A stretch of DNA of 64,000 nt, taken from positions 72,486 to 136,485 of the forward strand of contig NZ_DOEH01000022.1 of NCBI RefSeq assembly GCF_003533305.1, in the 5' to 3' direction. This DNA is from Providencia sp. (lineage in GTDB: Bacteria; Pseudomonadota; Gammaproteobacteria; Enterobacterales; Enterobacteriaceae). The notes under the pieces were generated by a model, which was not told where the DNA came from, made no database searches, and saw only the letters and a list, made by a program, of their open reading frames with translations. A program made the position numbers and the translations under genes. Positions 52,572 to 64,000 of the stretch are shown in pieces. Position 1 is the stretch's first letter; every line of letters starts with the position of its first letter.

Positions 52572-53879
52572 TTAAAAACTGTCTTCATATTCGCGAGCTT
52601 TTTTCTCATCATAGTTATGCTCCCATTTTGCGACTACGAGTGCAGCTAAAGCATTACCGACGACGTTTAAGGCTGTGCGTGCCATATCCAGTATACGGTC
52701 AACGCCGGCGATGAAGGCAAGACCTTCGAGTGGGATACCAACGCTACCTAATGTGGCGAGAAGGACAACGAACGAAACACCAGGAACACCTGCAATACCT
52801 TTTGATGTGATCATTAGCGTAAAGACTAATATGAGCTCTTGCCCAATAGATAACTCAATACCATAAAGTTGTGCGATAAATATAGCTGCAATACTTTGAT
52901 ATAAGGTTGAGCCATCGAGGTTGAAAGAATAGCCTATTGGGATCACGAAACTGGTGACTGATTTAGGTGCACCATATTTTTCCATTTTGTCCATAATACG
53001 TGGTAAAACGGTTTCTGAACTGGCGGTCGAATAAGCGAGTAAGAGTTCATCTTTTAATATTTTCATTAGCATGAAAATATTAATTTTACAGTATCTTGCA
53101 ACAAGTCCTAATACCACCACAGCAAAGAATATAATGGCGCAATGAACTAAAATAACTAATTTTAATAATGGAACAAGTGAGGTAAACCCAAAGTTTGCAA
53201 CGGTAACTGAAATCAGTGCAAATACCCCGATCGGCGCATATAGCATGATCATGTTAGTAACACGGAACATAGTTTCAGAGAATGTTTGCAAGACAGTGAG
53301 TAAAGGTTGTTTTTTCTCTAGAGGTAAAGAGGAAAGACCTAAACCAAATAATACTGCGAAGAAGATCACCGGTAGCATATCACCACTAGCCATTGCAGCA
53401 AAAATATTGCTAGGCACCAATGTTAAAAGGGTATTGATAATACCTGATGGATGGCTTTCAACTTCTTGTGTGGTTTTTTCATACTGAGAAATATCGACTT
53501 GGGTTAATTGAGACATATCAATACCAACGCCAGGTTCGAATATATTGGCAAAAGAAATACCAACTATAATGGCAATGGTGGTGATGATCTCAAAATAAAC
53601 AATAGTTTTAAAACCTAATGTTCCTAATTGCTTGGTGTTACCAACTCCTGCAATACCGACAATTAGCGTTGAAATAACGATTGGAACGACAATCATTTTT
53701 ATCAACTGAATAAATATTTTACCAGCAGGGGATAATATATTTAGAATAAGCCAATCTTTATATTCTGTATTATTATGTAATAGCGCACCAAGAATAACAC
53801 CTAAAATAAGAGCAACCAAAATTTGCCATCCTAGGCCAAACTTAAAGGGCTTCTTTTTAGTCATATGGTTTAATGTCAT
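52572..53879 (-). CDS. gltP: Glutamate/aspartate:proton symporter GltP
   Basis: A dicarboxylate/amino acid:cation symporter (DAACS) family protein of 435 residues (E. coli GltP 437). It carries the serine-rich re-entrant loop AYSTASSETVLPRIMDKME, the signature SFNLDGSTLYQSIAAIFIAQ and the second-hairpin MITSKGIAGVPGVSFVVLLA. AGVDRILDMARTALNVVGNA contains the substrate-binding Asp, Arg and Asn. Agreement along the whole length favours GltP over DctA or GltT. Start taken at the first ATG with GAGA upstream; an ATG at codon 6 is possible. Confidence 0.94.
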   Translation of the reverse strand: MTLNHMTKKKPFKFGLGWQILVALILGVILGALLHNNTEYKDWLILNILSPAGKIFIQLIKMIVVPIVISTLIVGIAGVGNTKQLGTLGFKTIVYFEIITTIAIIVGISFANIFEPGVGIDMSQLTQVDISQYEKTTQEVESHPSGIINTLLTLVPSNIFAAMASGDMLPVIFFAVLFGLGLSSLPLEKKQPLLTVLQTFSETMFRVTNMIMLYAPIGVFALISVTVANFGFTSLVPLLKLVILVHCAIIFFAVVVLGLVARYCKINIFMLMKILKDELLLAYSTASSETVLPRIMDKMEKYGAPKSVTSFVIPIGYSFNLDGSTLYQSIAAIFIAQLYGIELSIGQELILVFTLMITSKGIAGVPGVSFVVLLATLGSVGIPLEGLAFIAGVDRILDMARTALNVVGNALAALVVAKWEHNYDEKKAREYEDSF

Positions 53880-54474: not shown

Positions 54475-55137
54475 TTACGACGTAGTTTGGTTACGTTTAT
54501 AAGCTGCGAGTAATGTACGCTCTGATAAATCAAGATAGCTTCGCAACATATCTGCCGCTTCTTGGTTATGTCCTGAGTCCAATAATTCAAGAATTGACTG
54601 GTTTTTATCAATATAAGGCGCGTAAAGTATTTTTGGGTCATTCAAATGACCAAATGCTAAACGTAATTCAGCTGAAACATTGCGATAAAGCTTGATAAGC
54701 CTTTCACTATCAGAAAGTTCAACAATGGCAATATGGAACTTCATATTGGCAGTACCGACACCTATCCAATCTTTGACTTCTTCATGTTCACGCGCTTCAT
54801 TTACGGCTTGGCTCATTTTTTGAACTGCTGGATGTAAGGCGTATGCATGGCTCAATGCATCACATTCTATCAAACGGCGAACTTGGTAAATATCAATAAT
54901 AGCGGCCATGTCAGGAACTGAGACATAAACCCCTTTATTGGGTGCATAAGTTAATAAGCCTTCTTGAGTTAATACTCTAAATACCTCACGTAAGGTATTA
55001 CGGGAAATCTCTAACTCTTCACTCAGCATGGCTTCCGATAAGCGCTGCCCAGGAGTAAGCGCACCGACCATAATTTTGTATCTGATAGTTTCAGCGATGG
55101 TGACGGACAATGTTTGAGCAACAGGCTGTTTTTTCAT
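54475..55137 (-). CDS. GntR/FadR-family regulator divergent from the pxp-like operon
   Basis: A 220-residue transcription factor. The N-terminal winged helix-turn-helix reads ETIRYKIMVGALTPGQRLSE, then LSEELEISRNTLREVFRVL and QEGLLTYAPNKGVYV. The C-terminal helical FCD domain includes the potential metal/ligand residues of ANMKFHIAIVELSDSERLIK. It sits divergently beside a five-gene operon and most likely controls it. The start MKKQPVAQTLSV gives the usual FCD-subfamily length; the frame is open 30 codons further to a GTG at 55227 without homology. The ligand is unknown; 5-oxoproline or D-glutamate would be natural guesses. Confidence 0.82.
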   Translation of the reverse strand: MKKQPVAQTLSVTIAETIRYKIMVGALTPGQRLSEAMLSEELEISRNTLREVFRVLTQEGLLTYAPNKGVYVSVPDMAAIIDIYQVRRLIECDALSHAYALHPAVQKMSQAVNEAREHEEVKDWIGVGTANMKFHIAIVELSDSERLIKLYRNVSAELRLAFGHLNDPKILYAPYIDKNQSILELLDSGHNQEAADMLRSYLDLSERTLLAAYKRNQTTS

Positions 55138-55271
55138 AAGAAGACAAATTTTGGGTTGAGTGAAGAAATGGAATAAAGCGCTATCTTCACATATTCGAGT
55201 TACAGCGGCAAGGTGCCTTTCATGCACTGATAGGGTGAATATAAATCAATTATCTACCTGAAAGTGATCTA

Positions 55272-55302
55272 TGCATTCAATCTATGCACTTATTTGGTGC
55301 AT
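55272..55302 (+). promoter_or_regulatory. NtrC-type enhancer dyad upstream of the pxp-like operon
   Basis: TGCACTTATTTGGTGCA (55285-55301) is a TGCAC-N7-GTGCA dyad, with arms extending one further base each way. It differs from the E. coli glnA NtrC site TGCACTATATTGGTGCA only at central positions. A weaker overlapping dyad, TGCAT-N7-ATGCA, occupies 55272-55288. It stands about 185 bp upstream of a sigma-54 promoter, a usual enhancer distance. A GntR operator is the alternative reading. Confidence 0.7.
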
Positions 55303-55483
55303 TTGGTTTTAGTTTAGTGCAATCGTGATGTTAATAATTGAGGTTAATTGTTAATTAAGTGATCAAGATTTGATTTTTAATCATGGGATAACGATTTATG
55401 TTGATTGTTTTATCAGCATTTCATATTAATTGTTCAACAATCTATTCTTGATGAATTAACAATTTAGGTAACTAGTAGAACAA

Positions 55484-55500
55484 TGGCACGATAATTGCCT
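55484..55500 (+). promoter_or_regulatory. Sigma-54 promoter of the pxp-like operon
   Basis: TGGCACG-ATAA-TTGC (55484-55498) fits the -24/-12 consensus TGGCACG-N4-TTGCW at every core base. Transcription would start near 55510, about 110 bases before the first start codon. Confidence 0.8.
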
Positions 55501-55618
55501 AGTCTTATTGGGTTATTTGCTTAGGTTTATAGCTCGGAAAACTAGGTCAGTATTTAAAACACAACATCAATAAGCACACTAATAATTAAAAAAATAATCA
55601 AATTAGAGGGGTATGTAT

Positions 55619-56857
55619 ATGACAGCTCAAGAAAGTACCACCACCGCCGAGTATGTAAAAAAAAGACGTTCATCGCTAATAGGCGCAATCTTCTTGATGG
55701 CAACATCGGCAATTGGGCCTGGTTTTATCACGCAAACGGCAACGTTTACCGTGACATTGGGTGCGGCATTTGCTTTTGGTATTTTAGCTTCGATAGTGAT
55801 TGATTTCGTGGTACAGCAAAATATTTGGCGAATAGTGACCTTAACTAAGATGCATTCATCGGATATTGCGAATGCAACGATACCGGGAAGCGGGTATTTG
55901 TTAGCGGTTTTGGTCATTTTCGGTGGATTGATTTTCAATATCGGTAATATTGCTGGCGCAGGCTTAGGATTAAATGCCTTAGTCGGGCTTGATCCTAAAT
56001 GGGGTGGGTTGATTAGTGCATTGCTCGCTATCTATATATTTTCTTCTCGTAAGGCGAGCTCATTTATTGACAGACTTATTATTGGCTTAGGAATAGTCAT
56101 GATTGGTTTGACTTTATTTGTTGCTATCGCATCAAACCCACCTTTAGGAGAGGCGTTACGCCAAACTGTGCTACCTGATACTGTCGATTTTGCCATGATC
56201 ACAACCATTGTTGGTGGTACCGTTGGTGGTTACATCTGTTATGCAGGAGCACATCGTTTATTAGATAAAGGTGCTGTTGGTATTGAAAATATCAAGGCTG
56301 TTTCTAGTGCGGCGACTAAAGGCATTTTAGTTGTTGGTTTGATGCGCTATATATTATTTCTTGCCATCTTAGGCGTTGTGGCAAGCGGTGTGACTATTGA
56401 TATTTCAGGTAAAGCGGCTAATCCTGCATCACAAGCCTTCCAAGCGGCAGCGGGTAACTTCGGGTTACGTATTTTTGGCTTAATTTTATGGGCTGCGGCA
56501 CTCACGAGTGTTATTGGTGCGGCTTACACCTCCATGAGCTTTATTTCAGCATTTAAACAATCTATCACAGAAAGACAACGTAACGTTGCGACCATTATCT
56601 TCATTGCCATTTCATTAGTTATCTATTTATTGATGGGAACTGCACCTGCTGCGTTATTGGTTTTCGCCGGCGGCTTTAACGGTCTTATCCTACCGATTGG
56701 TCTAACTATCTTTGTTTACATTGGTTGGAAAAGAGCGGATTTAATGTCTGGATATCATTACCCGCGCTGGTTGCTGTGGTCTGGTGTTATAACCTGCGTA
56801 CTGACATGGTATATGGGCGTTATGTCCGTTGAAGCTATCTTCAATTACTTGAAATAA
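55619..56857 (+). CDS. NRAMP-family transporter (YcsG-like)
   Basis: A polytopic membrane protein of 412 residues with about 11 spans. It opens with RSSLIGAIFLMATSAIGPGF, the broken first helix of the NRAMP/APC fold. The DPGN metal-site motif of true MntH/NRAMP proteins is absent (SAIGPGF stands there instead), so a metal substrate is doubtful. B. subtilis YcsG, a relative, is encoded beside ycsF (pxpA) and kipIA (pxpBC). Uptake of 5-oxoproline or a related lactam is a reasonable inference but unproven. GAGGGG seven bases before 55619 decides this ATG over the one at 55613. Confidence 0.8.
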   Translation: MTAQESTTTAEYVKKRRSSLIGAIFLMATSAIGPGFITQTATFTVTLGAAFAFGILASIVIDFVVQQNIWRIVTLTKMHSSDIANATIPGSGYLLAVLVIFGGLIFNIGNIAGAGLGLNALVGLDPKWGGLISALLAIYIFSSRKASSFIDRLIIGLGIVMIGLTLFVAIASNPPLGEALRQTVLPDTVDFAMITTIVGGTVGGYICYAGAHRLLDKGAVGIENIKAVSSAATKGILVVGLMRYILFLAILGVVASGVTIDISGKAANPASQAFQAAAGNFGLRIFGLILWAAALTSVIGAAYTSMSFISAFKQSITERQRNVATIIFIAISLVIYLLMGTAPAALLVFAGGFNGLILPIGLTIFVYIGWKRADLMSGYHYPRWLLWSGVITCVLTWYMGVMSVEAIFNYLK

Positions 56858-56872
56858 TATCGAGGAATAATA

Positions 56873-57652
56873 ATGAAAAAAAGAATCGATTTAAACAGTG
56901 ACCTTGGAGAAAGCTTTGGTCAATGGCAAATGGGAAATGATGAGGCAATCCTACCTGTGGTCAGTAGCGCCAATATTGCTTGTGGTTTTCATGCAGGCTC
57001 TCCAGAGGGAATATTCAAAACATTGAAGGCGGCGAAAGAAAATGGGGTTGCCGTTGGTGCTCATGTTGGTTATCCCGACTTAGTGGGTTTTGGTCGCCGC
57101 AACATGGATATTGACTCGGGCGAATTAACCGCAGATGTAGTTTATCAAATTGGCGCGCTCAAAGGGCTAGCGGCAGCGGCTGGTACCCAAGTGCAATACG
57201 TCAAGCCGCATGGTGCGCTCTATAACACTATTGCTCACGATAAACGTCAAGCAATGGCAGTGATAAATGCAATTCTTGCTATCGACAATCAATTGATATT
57301 AGTGGCACTTGCCGGTTCACCATTAATTGATTGGGCGCGTGAACAAGGCCTCAAGGTTGTTGCTGAAGCTTTTGCGGATAGAGCCTATAACAGTGATGGA
57401 ACATTAGTATCCCGTAAACTTACTGGCGCAGTATTACACGATCCTAAACAGGTTGCACAGCGTATGCTGCAATTGGTCACTGAAGGGGGGGTTATGTCTA
57501 TTGACGGTAAATTTACGCCGATTGAAGCCGGGTCAATTTGTGTTCATGGGGATAGCCCTGGAGCCCTTGAAATGGCGCAACAAGTCCGTGCCATATTTGA
57601 AGCTCAAGGTATCGAAGTCTATGGTTTTGCGCATAAAGGGGATAATGAATGA
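56873..57652 (+). CDS. pxpA: 5-Oxoprolinase subunit A (LamB/YcsF family)
   Basis: PxpA, with PxpB and PxpC, hydrolyses 5-oxo-L-proline to glutamate using ATP in E. coli. This 259-residue homologue has the family N-terminus [20 protein letters not shown], the metal/active-site region [28 protein letters not shown], and KPHGALYN followed by [17 protein letters not shown]. An [10 protein letters not shown] segment closes the barrel. It begins 15 bases after the transporter and overlaps the next gene by 4 bases (ATGA). Confidence 0.94.
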
Positions 57653-58455
57653 CTCAGTTAATGAAAGCCTCTAAACAGGCGATTGACGCTGCAAAATCAG
57701 CAAGAGAAGCGATACGTCATGGATTCGATAAGCCTACGGCAGGGTTAGCGCCGGGTATGACACAAGCGAACATGATTGCACTGCCGCGCGATTGGGCTTT
57801 TGATTTTTTACTTTATGCGCAACGTAACCCTAAAAGTTGTCCCGTTCTTGATGTCTGTGAAGCGGGGAGCTGGCAGACGGTATTAGCAGAAGGGGCTGAT
57901 CTGCGTACTGATATCCCGCGTTATCGCGTTTGGAATGATGGTCAATTGGTTGATGAAATTACTGATGCAACAGATATTTATCATCAACACCCTGATTTAG
58001 TTACATTTTTGATTGGTTGTAGTTTTACTTTTGAAACACCAATGATTGAAGCGGGTATTGATATTCGTCACATCACGGATAAATCGAATGTACCTATGTA
58101 CAAAACTAATCGTTTATGTCGTCCCGCGGGGCGATTGCAGGGTGAACTCGTGGTCTCAATGCGCCCCATCCCCGCAGATAGGGTCGCTGATGCTGTGAAT
58201 ATAACAGGCAGGTTTCCGGCGGTTCATGGAACGCCAGTACACATAGGTGCCCCAGAGTTGCTTGGTATTAACGATATTATGCAGCCAGATTTTGGCGATG
58301 CGGTTCGTATCGAGGAGGGTGAAATCCCTGTGTTTTGGGCTTGTGGTGTTACACCGCAAGCGGCTGTAATGAAGTCAGGCGTACCCTTTGCGCTTAGTCA
58401 TGCGCCCGGTTACATGTTCATTACTGATGTTCCCGACGCTGCTTACCATATATAG
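57649..58455 (+). CDS. DUF1445 family protein (YcsI-like putative hydro-lyase / D-glutamate cyclase-like)
   Basis: A 268-residue cytoplasmic protein of the DUF1445 family. Recognisable segments are [20 protein letters not shown] near residue 30, [18 protein letters not shown] near 120 and [20 protein letters not shown] near 175. [16 protein letters not shown] is at the end. The mammalian mitochondrial D-glutamate cyclase, which makes 5-oxo-D-proline from D-glutamate, contains a DUF1445 domain, and B. subtilis YcsI is encoded with ycsF and ycsG. A role in D-glutamate/5-oxoproline interconversion is therefore plausible but not shown for bacterial members. Confidence 0.85.
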
Positions 58456-58464
58456 AGGTGCCAA

Positions 58465-60072
58465 TTGCGTTTTTTACCGGTCAATTTGAGTGCATTTATG
58501 GTCGAATTGCAAAGTCTTGAACAGACGATGGCATTGACTGATTCATTAAATAATATGCCAATTCAGGGAATTGAAGAGATAACCCCGGCAGCGAGAACGA
58601 TACTGGTTCGTTACAACCCAATAATTACCAAAATCAATGAATTGGTGCGTGAGATATCATTACGTGATGTTTCTAAAGTGGAGTTGAAAGTCAGTAAGTT
58701 AGTCACTATTCCCGTTGATTACCGCGGTGAAGATATTGCTGAGGTTGCGCAGTATTTAGGGATAACGATTGATGAAGTGATCCGACGCCATACTGAAAAT
58801 GAATACCAAGTTGCTTTCAGTGGTTTTGCGCCAGGATTTGGTTATATGGTATCTAAAGGGGCACAGTTAAATGTGCCAAGACGTCAATCGCCACGTGTTC
58901 GAATACCCGCAGGCTCAGTGGCTTTGGCGGGCGAATTCAGTAGTGTTTATCCACAAGCCAGTCCGGGTGGCTGGCAATTGATTGGTACCACAGATATTGC
59001 CGTATGGGATATTGATCGTGAGGAGCCTGCTCTACTGCAAGCAGGTTATCGAGTTAATTTTATCGATAAAGCACGAAGCAATGTGACATATAGCTTGCCG
59101 ATTAGTCAACCAATTAAGAATCGTAGTCAACAGATTGAAACTACTGATTTAACCGTATTAGCCGTGGGTTTACAGACCTTATTTCAAGATATGGGACGAA
59201 TTGGTCAGTCAGCACTCGGAATTTCTGAATCAGGGGCAATGGATAAACGCGCATTGCACAGCGCAAATCGCTTAGTGGGTAATTCGTCTGATAGTACCGC
59301 TTTAGAAATCACGCAAGGTGGCTTTAAAGCACGAGCAAACAGAGATTTGCTTGTTGCCATTACTGGTGCAACTTGTCCTATTCAAATTATGACGTCGGAA
59401 AACGAACATTATGAGGCGAAAACTTATCAGCCCATTGGCTTAGCGAAAGGGGATGTCATACATGTGGGGCGACCAAGCCAAGGTGTACGTAGCTATTTTG
59501 CTGTAAGGGGTGGTTTCAATGTCGCCACAGTTTTAGAAAGTTGCTCATTTGATACATTAGCCCAAGTTGGACCTGCTCCATTAGTTGTCGGGCAGTCGTT
59601 ATCTATCAAGGCAAATAATCAACAATCGGCAATATCATTGAATGAAACACCGGCTTTTGAGTATCCAACTTCAGAGGATGTGGTTGTTCTTGATGTAGTC
59701 TTAGGGCCGAGAACTGATTGGTTTACTCCGCAAGCGATTGAGTTACTCCGCAATCAGCTATGGCAAGTCACGGCAGCCTCTAACCGTATTGGCTTACGCC
59801 TTGCGGGAGATGTGCCATTTGAACGCGAAAAACAGCAAGAGTTACCTAGTGAAGGAACTTGCATTGGTGCGATTCAAGTGCCCGCCAATGGCCAACCTGT
59901 ATTGTTTTTAAATGACCATCCCTTAACGGGTGGATACCCAGTTATCGGGACAGTTTGTGAATACCATTTGGATTTAGCAGGGCAGCTGCCTGTCAATACC
60001 AAAATTAGGTTTAATCCACTTGGTGAATTTAAGCAATTTGAAGGGAGTCATGTTGAATATGAAAACAAATAA
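58465..60072 (+). CDS. Fused 5-oxoprolinase subunits B and C (KipI-KipA / AHS1-AHS2 fusion)
   Basis: A 535-residue fusion. Residues 1-215 match PxpB/KipI (AHS1 domain), with VAFSGFAPGFGYM and RQSPRVRIPAGSVALAGEFS. Residues 225-530 match PxpC/KipA (AHS2 domain), with GLQTLFQDMGRIGQSALGIS, SGAMDKRALHSANRLVGN and SYFAVRGGFNV. ASNRIGLRLAG and HPLTGGYPVIGTV complete it. In E. coli these are two genes. The same two domains form the carboxyltransferase half of urea carboxylase. Translation appears to start at TTG (58465) after AGAGGTG. The 3' end overlaps the next gene. Confidence 0.9.
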   Translation: MRFLPVNLSAFMVELQSLEQTMALTDSLNNMPIQGIEEITPAARTILVRYNPIITKINELVREISLRDVSKVELKVSKLVTIPVDYRGEDIAEVAQYLGITIDEVIRRHTENEYQVAFSGFAPGFGYMVSKGAQLNVPRRQSPRVRIPAGSVALAGEFSSVYPQASPGGWQLIGTTDIAVWDIDREEPALLQAGYRVNFIDKARSNVTYSLPISQPIKNRSQQIETTDLTVLAVGLQTLFQDMGRIGQSALGISESGAMDKRALHSANRLVGNSSDSTALEITQGGFKARANRDLLVAITGATCPIQIMTSENEHYEAKTYQPIGLAKGDVIHVGRPSQGVRSYFAVRGGFNVATVLESCSFDTLAQVGPAPLVVGQSLSIKANNQQSAISLNETPAFEYPTSEDVVVLDVVLGPRTDWFTPQAIELLRNQLWQVTAASNRIGLRLAGDVPFEREKQQELPSEGTCIGAIQVPANGQPVLFLNDHPLTGGYPVIGTVCEYHLDLAGQLPVNTKIRFNPLGEFKQFEGSHVEYENK

Positions 60073-61852
60073 TAACGCTAACCCATTAAATAAAGAAAAT
60101 ACTTCACATAAAGTATTGATAGCAAACCGTGGCGAAATTGCCGTCCGTATCATTCGCGCTTGTCGTGATTACGGTTTCGCTTCAATCGCTGTTTATGCCG
60201 ATAACGATATCGATGCTTTGCATGTAAAAATGGCCGATGAGGCGTTTGGCTTAGATGGCAGTGCACCAGCGCAAAGTTATTTAAACATCGAAAAACTGAT
60301 TGCGATTGCAAAGCGATCAGGGGCTACGATGGTGCACCCAGGTTATGGTTTTTTATCTGAGCGTGCTGAATTTGCGCGAGCAGTCGAAGAAGCCGGCTTA
60401 ATTTGGATAGGCCCAAGTGCTCAGTGTATTGATATTTTAGGTGACAAAGTTCAAGCGCGTCATATTGCGTTGCAAGTGGGAGCGCCTTTGGTGGTTGGTA
60501 CTAAAGATCCCGTTAAAGATGTTCGTGAAGTGGTGGAATTTGCTCATACTCATGGCTTGCCGATTGCAATTAAAGCGGCTTTTGGTGGTGGTGGTCGAGG
60601 TTTGAAGGTTGCATGGCAACTAAATGAAGTTGAAGAACTGTATCATTCTGCGGTGCGGGAAGCCACCGCTGCATTTGGTCGCGGGGAGTGTTTTTTAGAG
60701 CAATTTCTCCATAATCCGCGTCATATTGAAGCGCAAGTCATCGCCGATAAACAGGGTAATGTTGTGGTTGTGGGAACTCGGGATTGTTCATTACAGCGAC
60801 GAAATCAAAAGCTTGTTGAAGAGTCTCCGGCGCCTTTTTTATCTGATATGCTGCAACAGCAAATTATTAAGGCATCGACTGATATCTGCCGTAAAGCTGG
60901 CTATGTTGGTGCCGGTACGGTTGAATTTTTATTAAGCCAAGAAGGAACGTTATCTTTCTTGGAAGTGAATACCCGATTGCAAGTTGAGCATCCTGTTACC
61001 GAGGAAACGGCGAGTATTGACTTGGTTATTGAGCAGTTACGCATTGCTCAAGGCTTACCACTAAGTATCAAAGAAACACCACCGCCAAGAGGTCATGCTT
61101 TTGAGTTTCGTATCAATGCAGAGGATGCAGGAAATGGTTTTCTTCCTACTCCGGGGACCATTACGTTATTTGATGCGCCATCAGGTCCCGGCATTCGTAT
61201 TGATAGTGGTGTAGTAACCGGCTCGACTATTCCGGGTACTTTTGATTCATTGATGGCTAAACTCATTGTGGTGGGAAATACTCGGGAACAAGCAATTAAT
61301 CGTGCTCGACGTGCACTGGCTGAATTCACGATTGAAGGTGTGGCATCTGTATTACCTTTTCACCGCGCAGTCATGGAACATGCTGATTTTTGTGAGCAAT
61401 TTAAGGTGCATACACGCTGGATTGAAACTGAATTTAATACACCAATTTCACCGGCAAAACGACAAGTGCCAACATCGAGTGGTGAATTGATACGAACGTT
61501 TATTGAAATTGATGGAAAACGTTGTGAACTTGGTTTACCCGCACAATTATATTCTGGTTTTCTTACCAGCGGTTTATCTTCAACGAGTTTAGCTGAAAAT
61601 GGCTCAAGAAACACCAAAGCGAGCCAGCTTGTAGACAACAATCCAGATAGGGTCAATGCACCAATTTCAGGTATTTTATTTAATTGGCTCATTCCTCAAG
61701 GGGAAAAAGTCATTGAAGGTGATGTCATTGGTGTAATGGAAGCGATGAAAATGGAAGTTCAAGTATTAGCTCATCGCGCCGGAAAATTAACCTATAGTGC
61801 CAATAAAGGTGATTTTATTGAGGCGGATTGTAAAATTGCTGAAATTAATTAA
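60059..61852 (+). CDS. Biotin carboxylase with C-terminal biotinyl domain
   Basis: A 597-residue acyl-CoA/urea carboxylase alpha-type protein. The biotin carboxylase domain starts VLIANRGEIAVRIIRACRDY, with HPGYGFLSERAEFA, the ATP-grasp loop KAAFGGGGRGLKV and FLEVNTRLQVEHPVTEE. After a linker the biotinyl domain ends the protein, with acceptor Lys564 in VMEAMKMEVQ. No separate carboxyltransferase gene of the AccA/AccD or PccB kind is nearby. The upstream PxpB-PxpC fusion could be its carboxyltransferase partner, as in urea carboxylase. Start uncertain: 60050 and a TTG at 60053 are nearer the AAGGGAG element. Confidence 0.92.
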   Translation: MKTNNNANPLNKENTSHKVLIANRGEIAVRIIRACRDYGFASIAVYADNDIDALHVKMADEAFGLDGSAPAQSYLNIEKLIAIAKRSGATMVHPGYGFLSERAEFARAVEEAGLIWIGPSAQCIDILGDKVQARHIALQVGAPLVVGTKDPVKDVREVVEFAHTHGLPIAIKAAFGGGGRGLKVAWQLNEVEELYHSAVREATAAFGRGECFLEQFLHNPRHIEAQVIADKQGNVVVVGTRDCSLQRRNQKLVEESPAPFLSDMLQQQIIKASTDICRKAGYVGAGTVEFLLSQEGTLSFLEVNTRLQVEHPVTEETASIDLVIEQLRIAQGLPLSIKETPPPRGHAFEFRINAEDAGNGFLPTPGTITLFDAPSGPGIRIDSGVVTGSTIPGTFDSLMAKLIVVGNTREQAINRARRALAEFTIEGVASVLPFHRAVMEHADFCEQFKVHTRWIETEFNTPISPAKRQVPTSSGELIRTFIEIDGKRCELGLPAQLYSGFLTSGLSSTSLAENGSRNTKASQLVDNNPDRVNAPISGILFNWLIPQGEKVIEGDVIGVMEAMKMEVQVLAHRAGKLTYSANKGDFIEADCKIAEIN

Positions 61853-61877: not shown

Positions 61878-61912
61878 TAAAGCGGTAATTCTAAAAGGTT
61901 ACCGTTTTAATT
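61878..61912 (+). terminator. Probable terminator of the pxp-like operon
   Basis: CGGTAA (61883-61888) pairs with TTACCG (61899-61904), extended by three weaker pairs, and is followed by TTTTAATTT, 26 bases after the last stop codon. Confidence 0.55.
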
Positions 61913-63335: not shown

Positions 63336-63929
63336 TTAACGATATAATTCAGCTTTAATTGGAGTCAAATTAAGTTGCTGTTGAAGCGCTCTTAAATATT
63401 GTTCAGTGATTATGGCAAGGTTAGGGTAAAACGGCTGCTCAGTTTGGCTCTGTTGTACCAATTCTAAATAGCGATATGCCCAAGGTAGTAAGTGTTGTTC
63501 TAAAAGGACAATAATCGCCTCATCTTCACCTTTCTCTGCTAAGGCAGAGATTGCCATCAATATTAAACCAAATTGATCTTCTGGCTCACGAACGCCGGTT
63601 TCTGTGACTAACCCTTTAGTCATTAAAAATTGTCGGTAAGCTGCGGTTGACTCTCCCATGACAGTATTATCATGGGCCAAGTAAACAGAGCCCCAAGGCG
63701 GAGCAGGCATCGCGCCTTGACCTTCGAATAAAATAGAAAAATCGTAAGTAATATCACCAGTATTGATTTGTGAAAATGATGAACAAATTTGCTGTACTTG
63801 GTTGATATTTTCCCATGAATGTAATGATGACAATTCAGGTAAAACAGGCAGTAGGTTCTGAAATGTTTTTGTTTGTGGTGCGTAGTAGAAGCAGGCGCCG
63901 AGGATTCTGAGTAGTGTGGTGTCAATCAT
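63336..63929 (-). CDS. dmsD: DmsD-like Tat proofreading chaperone (TorD family)
   Basis: A cytoplasmic all-helical chaperone of 197 residues (E. coli DmsD 204) that binds the twin-arginine signal of DMSO reductase-type molybdoenzymes. Visible features are LRILGACFYYAP at the N-terminus, MPAPPWGSVYLAHDNTVMGE near residue 77 and the EPEDQFGLILM motif near residue 117. HLLPWAYRYLELV and QPFYPNLAIITEQYL complete it. The frame is open 20 codons upstream, into a palindromic repeat without homology. The start at 63929 has CGGA upstream. The dmsABC target genes may lie beyond the window. Confidence 0.85.
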   Translation of the reverse strand: MIDTTLLRILGACFYYAPQTKTFQNLLPVLPELSSLHSWENINQVQQICSSFSQINTGDITYDFSILFEGQGAMPAPPWGSVYLAHDNTVMGESTAAYRQFLMTKGLVTETGVREPEDQFGLILMAISALAEKGEDEAIIVLLEQHLLPWAYRYLELVQQSQTEQPFYPNLAIITEQYLRALQQQLNLTPIKAELYR

Positions 63930-63939
63930 GATATATCCG

Positions 63940-64000
63940 TTATATTTCGAGCTACAGCGTTGTTGGCTGCGCTCAGCTACTCGAGTCACATACTTATGTA
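63940..64000. repeat. Half of a dispersed palindromic repeat at the window edge
   Basis: The sequence TTCGAGCTACAGCGTTG, GGCTGCGCTCAGCTACTCGA and then CACATACTTATGTA is more GC-rich than its surroundings. It ends at the palindromic core CATACTTATGTA at the window edge, so the other arm lies outside. It resembles the intergenic palindromic repeats of Proteus, Providencia and relatives, and shares its core with 34077-34160. Confidence 0.5.

Follow-up and report, generated by a model that had tools for sequence, protein, structure and literature searches.

The window analysed here, a stretch of 64,000 nucleotides from a Providencia sp. genome (contig NZ_DOEH01000022.1), contains an operon that probably serves the uptake and ring opening of 5-oxoproline under a double control, by nitrogen shortage and by the substrate. 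The initial annotation of this DNA had described a nitrogen-controlled (sigma-54/NtrC) operon for the use of 5-oxoproline or a lactam, with a sigma-54 box at 55484-55498 and an NtrC-like dyad at 55285-55301. Both sites are present, without mismatches and correctly placed, and their conservation in orthologous loci supports the nitrogen-control reading. To this, the present analysis adds an operator, a fixed promoter geometry, a helical phasing of the dyads and a complete set of carboxylase parts, formed by a biotin carboxylase (BC) and PxpBC. The sites, their geometry, the operator, the gene content and the intact residues of the BC and of its biotin carrier domain (BCCP) can be read directly from the sequence and its conservation. 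The elements of the promoter region are the following:

55223..55239, no strand assigned: distal NtrC-type dyad with a single mismatch, placed 62 bp away from the proximal one
55285-55301, no strand assigned: proximal NtrC-type dyad TGCACTTATTTGGTGCA, exact, 0 mismatches (TGCAC-N7-GTGCA)
55357-55378, no strand assigned: conserved block AAGTGATC-N5-TTGATTTTT between enhancer and operator, from the upstream alignment
55429-55441, no strand assigned: PxpR operator, the palindrome ATTGTTCAACAAT, identical to the operator core of Corynebacterium glutamicum and conserved
55484-55498, plus strand: sigma-54 promoter TGGCACGATAATTGC, 0 mismatches to the consensus, conserved

The box TGGCACGATAATTGC is the sole exact match in the window and one of three in the genome, for which the motif scans covered all 4,394,954 bases. 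At up to one mismatch, the genome holds 63 boxes, as compared with 33 for a reversed-pattern control. The second exact box (G000:C6:23326) lies inside the open reading frame (ORF) of an MFS transporter, and the third in a 3 kb stretch devoid of ORFs of 100 amino acids; thus, neither looks like a promoter. With the spacing from the -12 element that is usual for such promoters, transcription would start at about 55510. The dyad TGCACTTATTTGGTGCA is likewise the only exact match in the window, and four exact dyads are found in the whole genome, this one included. Of the other three, one lies in the interval from glnA to the beginning of glnL, another stands 290 bp in front of gltI, and one falls within an ORF; the assignments of glnA, glnL and gltI are over the NCBIfam cut-offs.

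Conservation was scored as the best box and the best dyad within 420 bp upstream of the transporter gene with which the operon begins. This gene is found in 24/24 genomes of Providencia, in 9/119 genomes of a family sample (E 1e-20) and in 30/394 genomes of an order sample (E 1e-100). A check across Providencia, as proposed by the initial annotation, recovered the box in all 24 genomes (21 exact, 3 with one mismatch), whereas shuffled sequences reach 0-1 mismatches in 0.3% of cases. The dyad was recovered in all 24 at 0-2 mismatches and in 23 at 0-1, with 0, 1 and 2 mismatches in 6, 17 and 1 genomes, respectively. Among 18 Gilliamella loci, 14 have a box and eight a dyad with 1-2 mismatches. 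In six other Enterobacterales loci the box has at best 2 mismatches, a level that shuffles reach in 10.8%. Seven loci from seven genera other than Providencia, all with a gene for a GntR-type regulator, show TGG-N8-TTGC 55-58 bp from the GntR operator, and the TGG and TTGC of the -24 and -12 elements are invariant in all 31 loci with a GntR gene; in L011, L014 and L055 the box was missed by one of two scans and was placed by its distance to the operator. Box and operator are kept in eight genera, and good dyads in seven of these. The two dyads are 62 bp apart in the window and 29-30 bp apart in many relatives. TGCATTCAATCTATGCA at 55272-55288, which overlaps the proximal dyad, was considered as a third conserved NtrC site and rejected: it has 2 mismatches and consists, in the alignment, of extra bases of the window genome.

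The spacing of these elements is rigid. From operator start to box start there are 55 bp in 28, 56 bp in two and 58 bp in one of the 31 loci. In 30 loci a good dyad is found upstream of the box, the nearest one at a distance of 169-230 bp, and these distances fall into six offset classes about 10 bp apart; with L055 left out, 23 of 20,000 random placements were equally periodic. Such phasing would be expected if the DNA looped on one face of the helix. Locus L020 carries about 100 bp inserted between the sigma-54 box and the transporter gene, with the spacing of box, operator and dyad unchanged. The block at 55357-55378 shows 0-2 mismatches in 24/24 Providencia; among eight other Enterobacterales loci, L013 has 2 mismatches and the others 4-8. 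Our guess is that this block could be an architectural site, such as one for IHF.

Several observations weigh against this reading of the promoter. Allowing up to 2 mismatches gives 15 box-like sites in the window, with 15.3 expected from shuffles, and 20 dyad-like sites, with 29.2 expected; as loose matches are at chance level, the case rests on exactness and conservation. The genomes are related, so that conservation counts are not independent, and the offset classes were defined after looking at the data. Four of the 18 Gilliamella loci are without a box, and ten without a dyad, at up to 2 mismatches. The boxes of the other Enterobacterales genera have 2-3 mismatches to the consensus, the dyads of L055 all have 3, and L031 is without a good proximal dyad. 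The distribution of the regulators served as a control. Both rpoN and NtrC (over its family cut-off) were found in the same 28 of 38 genomes tested, two of them Providencia. The ten genomes without them are all of family f9, where pxpB is the first pxp gene and where neither box nor dyad was found at 0-1 mismatch upstream of pxpB. This control speaks for the reading without being spotless: at 2 mismatches L211 has a box and L212 a dyad (1/10 each), and 3/10 f9 loci fit a looser box pattern.

A chance promoter is rejected by the rarity of the site in the genome, its conservation in Providencia, its invariance and its spacing. It also seems highly improbable that the sigma-54 box is decorative and that the operon is transcribed from a sigma-70 promoter. 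There is one sigma-70-like match, TTAACA-17-AACAAT (9 of 12), at 55456-55484, but the 6.9 kb region contains only 4 such matches compared with 16.7 in shuffles; moreover, the sigma-54 box is invariant at fixed spacing, and rpoN and ntrC occur in all 28 tested carriers outside family f9. Such matches being rarer than in shuffles, a sigma-70 main promoter was rejected.

The operator ATTGTTCAACAAT emerged as a conserved palindrome from the alignment of upstream regions. With at most one mismatch, it is present in 31/31 loci with a divergent GntR gene and in 0/29 without one, absence of the gene being judged on the fetched sequence, which covers about 1.5 kb on the upstream side of the transporter gene. 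In the whole genome ATTGTTNAACAAT occurs once, and the reversed control gave no match. In C. glutamicum the 17-bp PxpR site agATTGTTCAACAATct was proposed by RegPrecise and tested by mutation, and PxpR is described as a repressor of pxpTABC that binds 5-oxoproline (dissociation constant, KD, 726 nM) and did not bind any of the four amino acids assayed (PMC13274462). The operator, the GntR and FCD domains and the layout divergent to the transporter gene support a PxpR-like regulator in the window. Because the operator is identical to the core of the PxpR site, the regulator, and hence the operon, would be tied to 5-oxoproline. The initial annotation had suggested that the divergent GntR-type gene could add substrate-specific control; the exact PxpR operator argues for this, and it favours 5-oxoproline over the generic lactam that had been offered beside it.

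The genes of the locus are arranged as follows:

54475..55137, minus strand: GntR/FCD regulator gene, PxpR-like, 220 amino acids (PF00392 and PF07729 above cut-off), divergent to the operon
55619..56857, plus strand: NRAMP-family transporter of the PxpT/YcsG type (PF01566), probable 5-oxoproline importer by analogy to C. glutamicum PxpT
56873..57652, plus strand: pxpA (LamB/YcsF), 5-oxoprolinase subunit A (NF003814, 385.5 bits, cut-off 226)
57649..58455, plus strand: DUF1445/D-glutamate cyclase family gene (PF07286; NF003969 over cut-off)
58465..60072, plus strand: pxpB-pxpC fusion, carboxyltransferase-domain protein of 535 amino acids (PF02682 and PF02626)
60059..61852, plus strand: biotin carboxylase-biotin carrier fusion, BC-BCCP (PF00289, PF02786, PF02785, PF00364)
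61878..61909, plus strand: probable intrinsic terminator, a 13-pair stem with a T-rich tail (fold z-score -2.7)

The gene order of the initial annotation stands, with the refinement that pxpB and pxpC form one fused gene and that the last gene encodes the BC fused to a biotin carrier. For the transporter an alternative start at 55613 is possible, 55619 being better spaced from the GAGGGG ribosome-binding site. The BC-BCCP gene overlaps pxpBC by 14 bp. The terminator pattern by itself is weak, as the region has 8 terminator-like sites and shuffles 6.4. Four Gilliamella loci viewed in full (L108-L110, L116) are without both DUF1445 and the GntR gene, and L111 is without DUF1445 only; thus, neither gene is essential to the core operon.

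That the cargo of the NRAMP-type protein is Mn2+, needed for a metal-dependent step, and not 5-oxoproline seems unlikely. Overexpression of ycsG raised cell manganese in Bacillus subtilis, and YcsG was reported to import Mn2+, which speaks against a 5-oxoproline importer. In C. glutamicum, however, a pxpT deletion mutant no longer grew on 5-oxoproline, and growth returned with a plasmid-borne copy (PMC13274462). An NRAMP-type homologue 78% identical to that of the window was seen in locus L103 (G057; the upstream part also in L010), with no pxp match in about 11 kb and with neither an NtrC dyad nor the operator found. It is flanked by a sugar-carrier-like gene and, by eye, by peptidase and oligopeptide ABC genes.

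The identity of the enzyme bears on the substrate. The pxpA product scores above the subfamily model NF003814 and above NF003816, and below the cut-offs of three other PxpA models. The fusion protein falls below the PxpC equivalog NF045499 (182.6 of 500) and the PxpB model TIGR00370 (140.5 of 145.55), while passing the broader TIGR00724 (242.9 of 230.2) and, clearly, the Pfam CT_C_D domain. These low equivalog scores, together with the action of related carriers of the carboxyltransferase domain on urea, could point to a different small cyclic amide as the substrate (a lactam, a hydantoin or a dihydropyrimidine-like ring), with 5-oxoproline incidental. We regard this as quite improbable, given that the operator equals that of PxpR, with its binding of 5-oxoproline and of none of the four amino acids, that PxpA is over its subfamily cut-off, and that profile searches found the only pxpA (PF03746) and the only CT_A_B (PF02626) genes of the genome in this operon.

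From the sequences we infer binding, expression, transport and a biotin-dependent step, as follows. When nitrogen is short, phosphorylated NtrC would bind the dyads, whose centres lie at about -217 and about -279, and, via DNA looping, would open sigma-54 polymerase at the promoter box (55484-55498). The operator is located at about -75, that is on the DNA separating enhancer from promoter, and a PxpR dimer bound there would block this step until 5-oxoproline binds PxpR, and PxpR would have to leave before the loop becomes productive. As the NtrC loop would require nitrogen shortage and the release of PxpR would require 5-oxoproline, the operon may function as an AND gate. The NRAMP-type carrier would then import 5-oxoproline, and PxpA and PxpBC would use ATP to open its ring, yielding glutamate. 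Most likely, it is BC-BCCP that would spend the ATP, forming carboxybiotin; PxpBC, as the carboxyltransferase, would carboxylate the lactam, PxpA would hydrolyse it, and the carbamate would break down to glutamate and CO2.

That 5-oxoproline is opened by a biotin-dependent 5-oxoprolinase, in which BC-BCCP and PxpBC activate the lactam by carboxylation and PxpA then hydrolyses the ring, has in our estimate about an even chance, and the same holds for the view of this route as a split version of the urea carboxylase scheme that covers the energy cost of an uphill ring opening. The predicted structure of PxpBC (pLDDT 88.8) has the fold of the carboxyltransferase domain of urea carboxylase and of Escherichia coli YbgJK. 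In BC-BCCP, the biotin motif EAMKM and the key residues are invariant in 16/16 aligned sequences, that of the window included; the roles of the BC residues are presumed from E. coli AccC. The two proteins thus appear to hold the parts of a biotin-dependent carboxylase: a BC site, a biotin lysine and a carboxyltransferase fold. The last gene was rejected as a housekeeping AccC, as it scores 539 with TIGR00514 (cut-off 626.5) and a separate AccC of the genome scores 813. With the urea carboxylase model TIGR02712 (cut-off 1303.85), the two proteins score 483.5 and 160.

The linkage of pxpA to BC was surveyed in 80 loci, hand-picked among the strongest matches listed, so that weak pxpA genes are under-sampled; three of the stretches (L138, L193, L198) are short. 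A BC is linked in 12/14 loci with the PxpA type of the window and in 7/66 others, with differing gene orders. Against a biotin step, 61/80 of the loci are without a BC within 8 kb on the same strand, E. coli K-12 has none near its pxp genes, and the literature assumes a phosphorylation mechanism for PxpABC. PxpABC is also functional in C. glutamicum, where the operon is described as pxpTABC and no BC appears among its named genes (PMC13274462). These points favour the same operon and double control with PxpBC as an ATP-dependent, kinase-like partner of PxpA and BC-BCCP as an unrelated or accessory carboxylase, an alternative that we hold to be a serious one, if somewhat short of even. Set against it are the lack of any other carboxyltransferase for BC-BCCP in the operon, the urea carboxylase-like fold, the association of BC with the PxpA type of the window, and structure 9yx5, in which a carboxylase complex that includes a BC-BCCP chain has a homologous pair bound. 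In the literature searched (open licence, accessible parts) we recognised no paper on a biotin or carboxyltransferase mechanism of 5-oxoprolinase and found none joining urea carboxylase with KipI. Two loci, L136 and L142, have a pxpA 69-71% identical to that of the window and no pxpB, pxpC or BC match in a 16.7 kb stretch; the neighbours tested are MFS and DUF421 genes, or DUF481, MscS-like and VTT genes. L212 (G228, family f9) shows a biotin-carrier-like match near pxpB and no BC match in its stretch.

The operon of B. subtilis, whose gene order we take to be pxpA(ycsF)-ycsG-ycsI-kipI-kipA, with ycsI presumably a DUF1445 gene, has to our knowledge no BC. As in the window, pxpA, the NRAMP-type ycsG, ycsI, pxpB and pxpC stand together under global nitrogen control, in that case by TnrA; B. 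subtilis uses TnrA, CcpA, AhrC, MntR and KipR, whereas the window would use NtrC and PxpR (PMC10448178). The pxpTABC/PxpR system of C. glutamicum shares with the window the divergent GntR-family regulator, the NRAMP-type transporter gene in first position, pxpABC and the operator core ATTGTTCAACAAT (PMC13274462); the window differs in its sigma-54 and NtrC sites, the fusion of pxpBC and the addition of BC-BCCP and DUF1445. A six-gene operon of Staphylococcus aureus has pxpB, pxpC and pxpA next to accB and accC, a similar joining of pxp and biotin genes, but there the acc genes are separate and read as serving fatty-acid synthesis, and control is by CcpE (PMC11315280). In Mycobacterium smegmatis, MSMEG_0435-0436 (3mml) is a PxpBC homologue pair, bound in 9yx5 to a long-chain acyl-CoA carboxylase complex whose BC-BCCP chain is the best solved match of the BC-BCCP of the window, a comparison at the level of the complex and not of chain contacts; M. 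smegmatis uses a shared alpha3 subunit, the window a dedicated BC-BCCP. The pair was 2.40- and 2.17-fold up under nitrogen limitation (PMC4617892). Urea carboxylase (3va7, 5i8i), like the window, combines BC, BCCP and a KipI/KipA-type carboxyltransferase acting on a C-N compound, but it is one polypeptide acting on urea, whereas the operon of the window distributes these parts over two proteins and adds PxpA. In other bacteria, nitrogen-controlled pxp genes and PxpR have each been described before; the combination of NtrC/sigma-54 with PxpR was not found in the open-licence literature searched.

On the far side of the pxpR gene lies gltP (52572-53879, minus strand), a glutamate/aspartate:proton symporter gene over its NCBIfam cut-off, so that in the window genome a glutamate importer adjoins the predicted glutamate-yielding operon. 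A DmsD/TorD-like chaperone gene is found at 63336-63989 (minus strand), its score of 156.7 just under the DmsD cut-off of 162.

The promoter is precise: NtrC as a distant global activator and PxpR as a local sensor of the substrate seem to be joined in one rigidly spaced arrangement, which would extend the nitrogen control of 5-oxoproline genes from B. subtilis, where TnrA exerts it, to the enterobacteria. Of more interest is the mechanism of the enzyme. If BC takes part, then phosphorylation, the mechanism assumed for the widespread PxpABC 5-oxoprolinase, is either incorrect or only part of the account, and PxpBC proteins would generally be carboxyltransferases, borrowing AccBC or AccA3 where a dedicated BC is absent. 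In that case, neighbours of pxp genes annotated as 'acetyl-CoA carboxylase' may carry the wrong name, and the accB and accC genes of pxp operons such as that of S. aureus would have a role other than fatty-acid synthesis.

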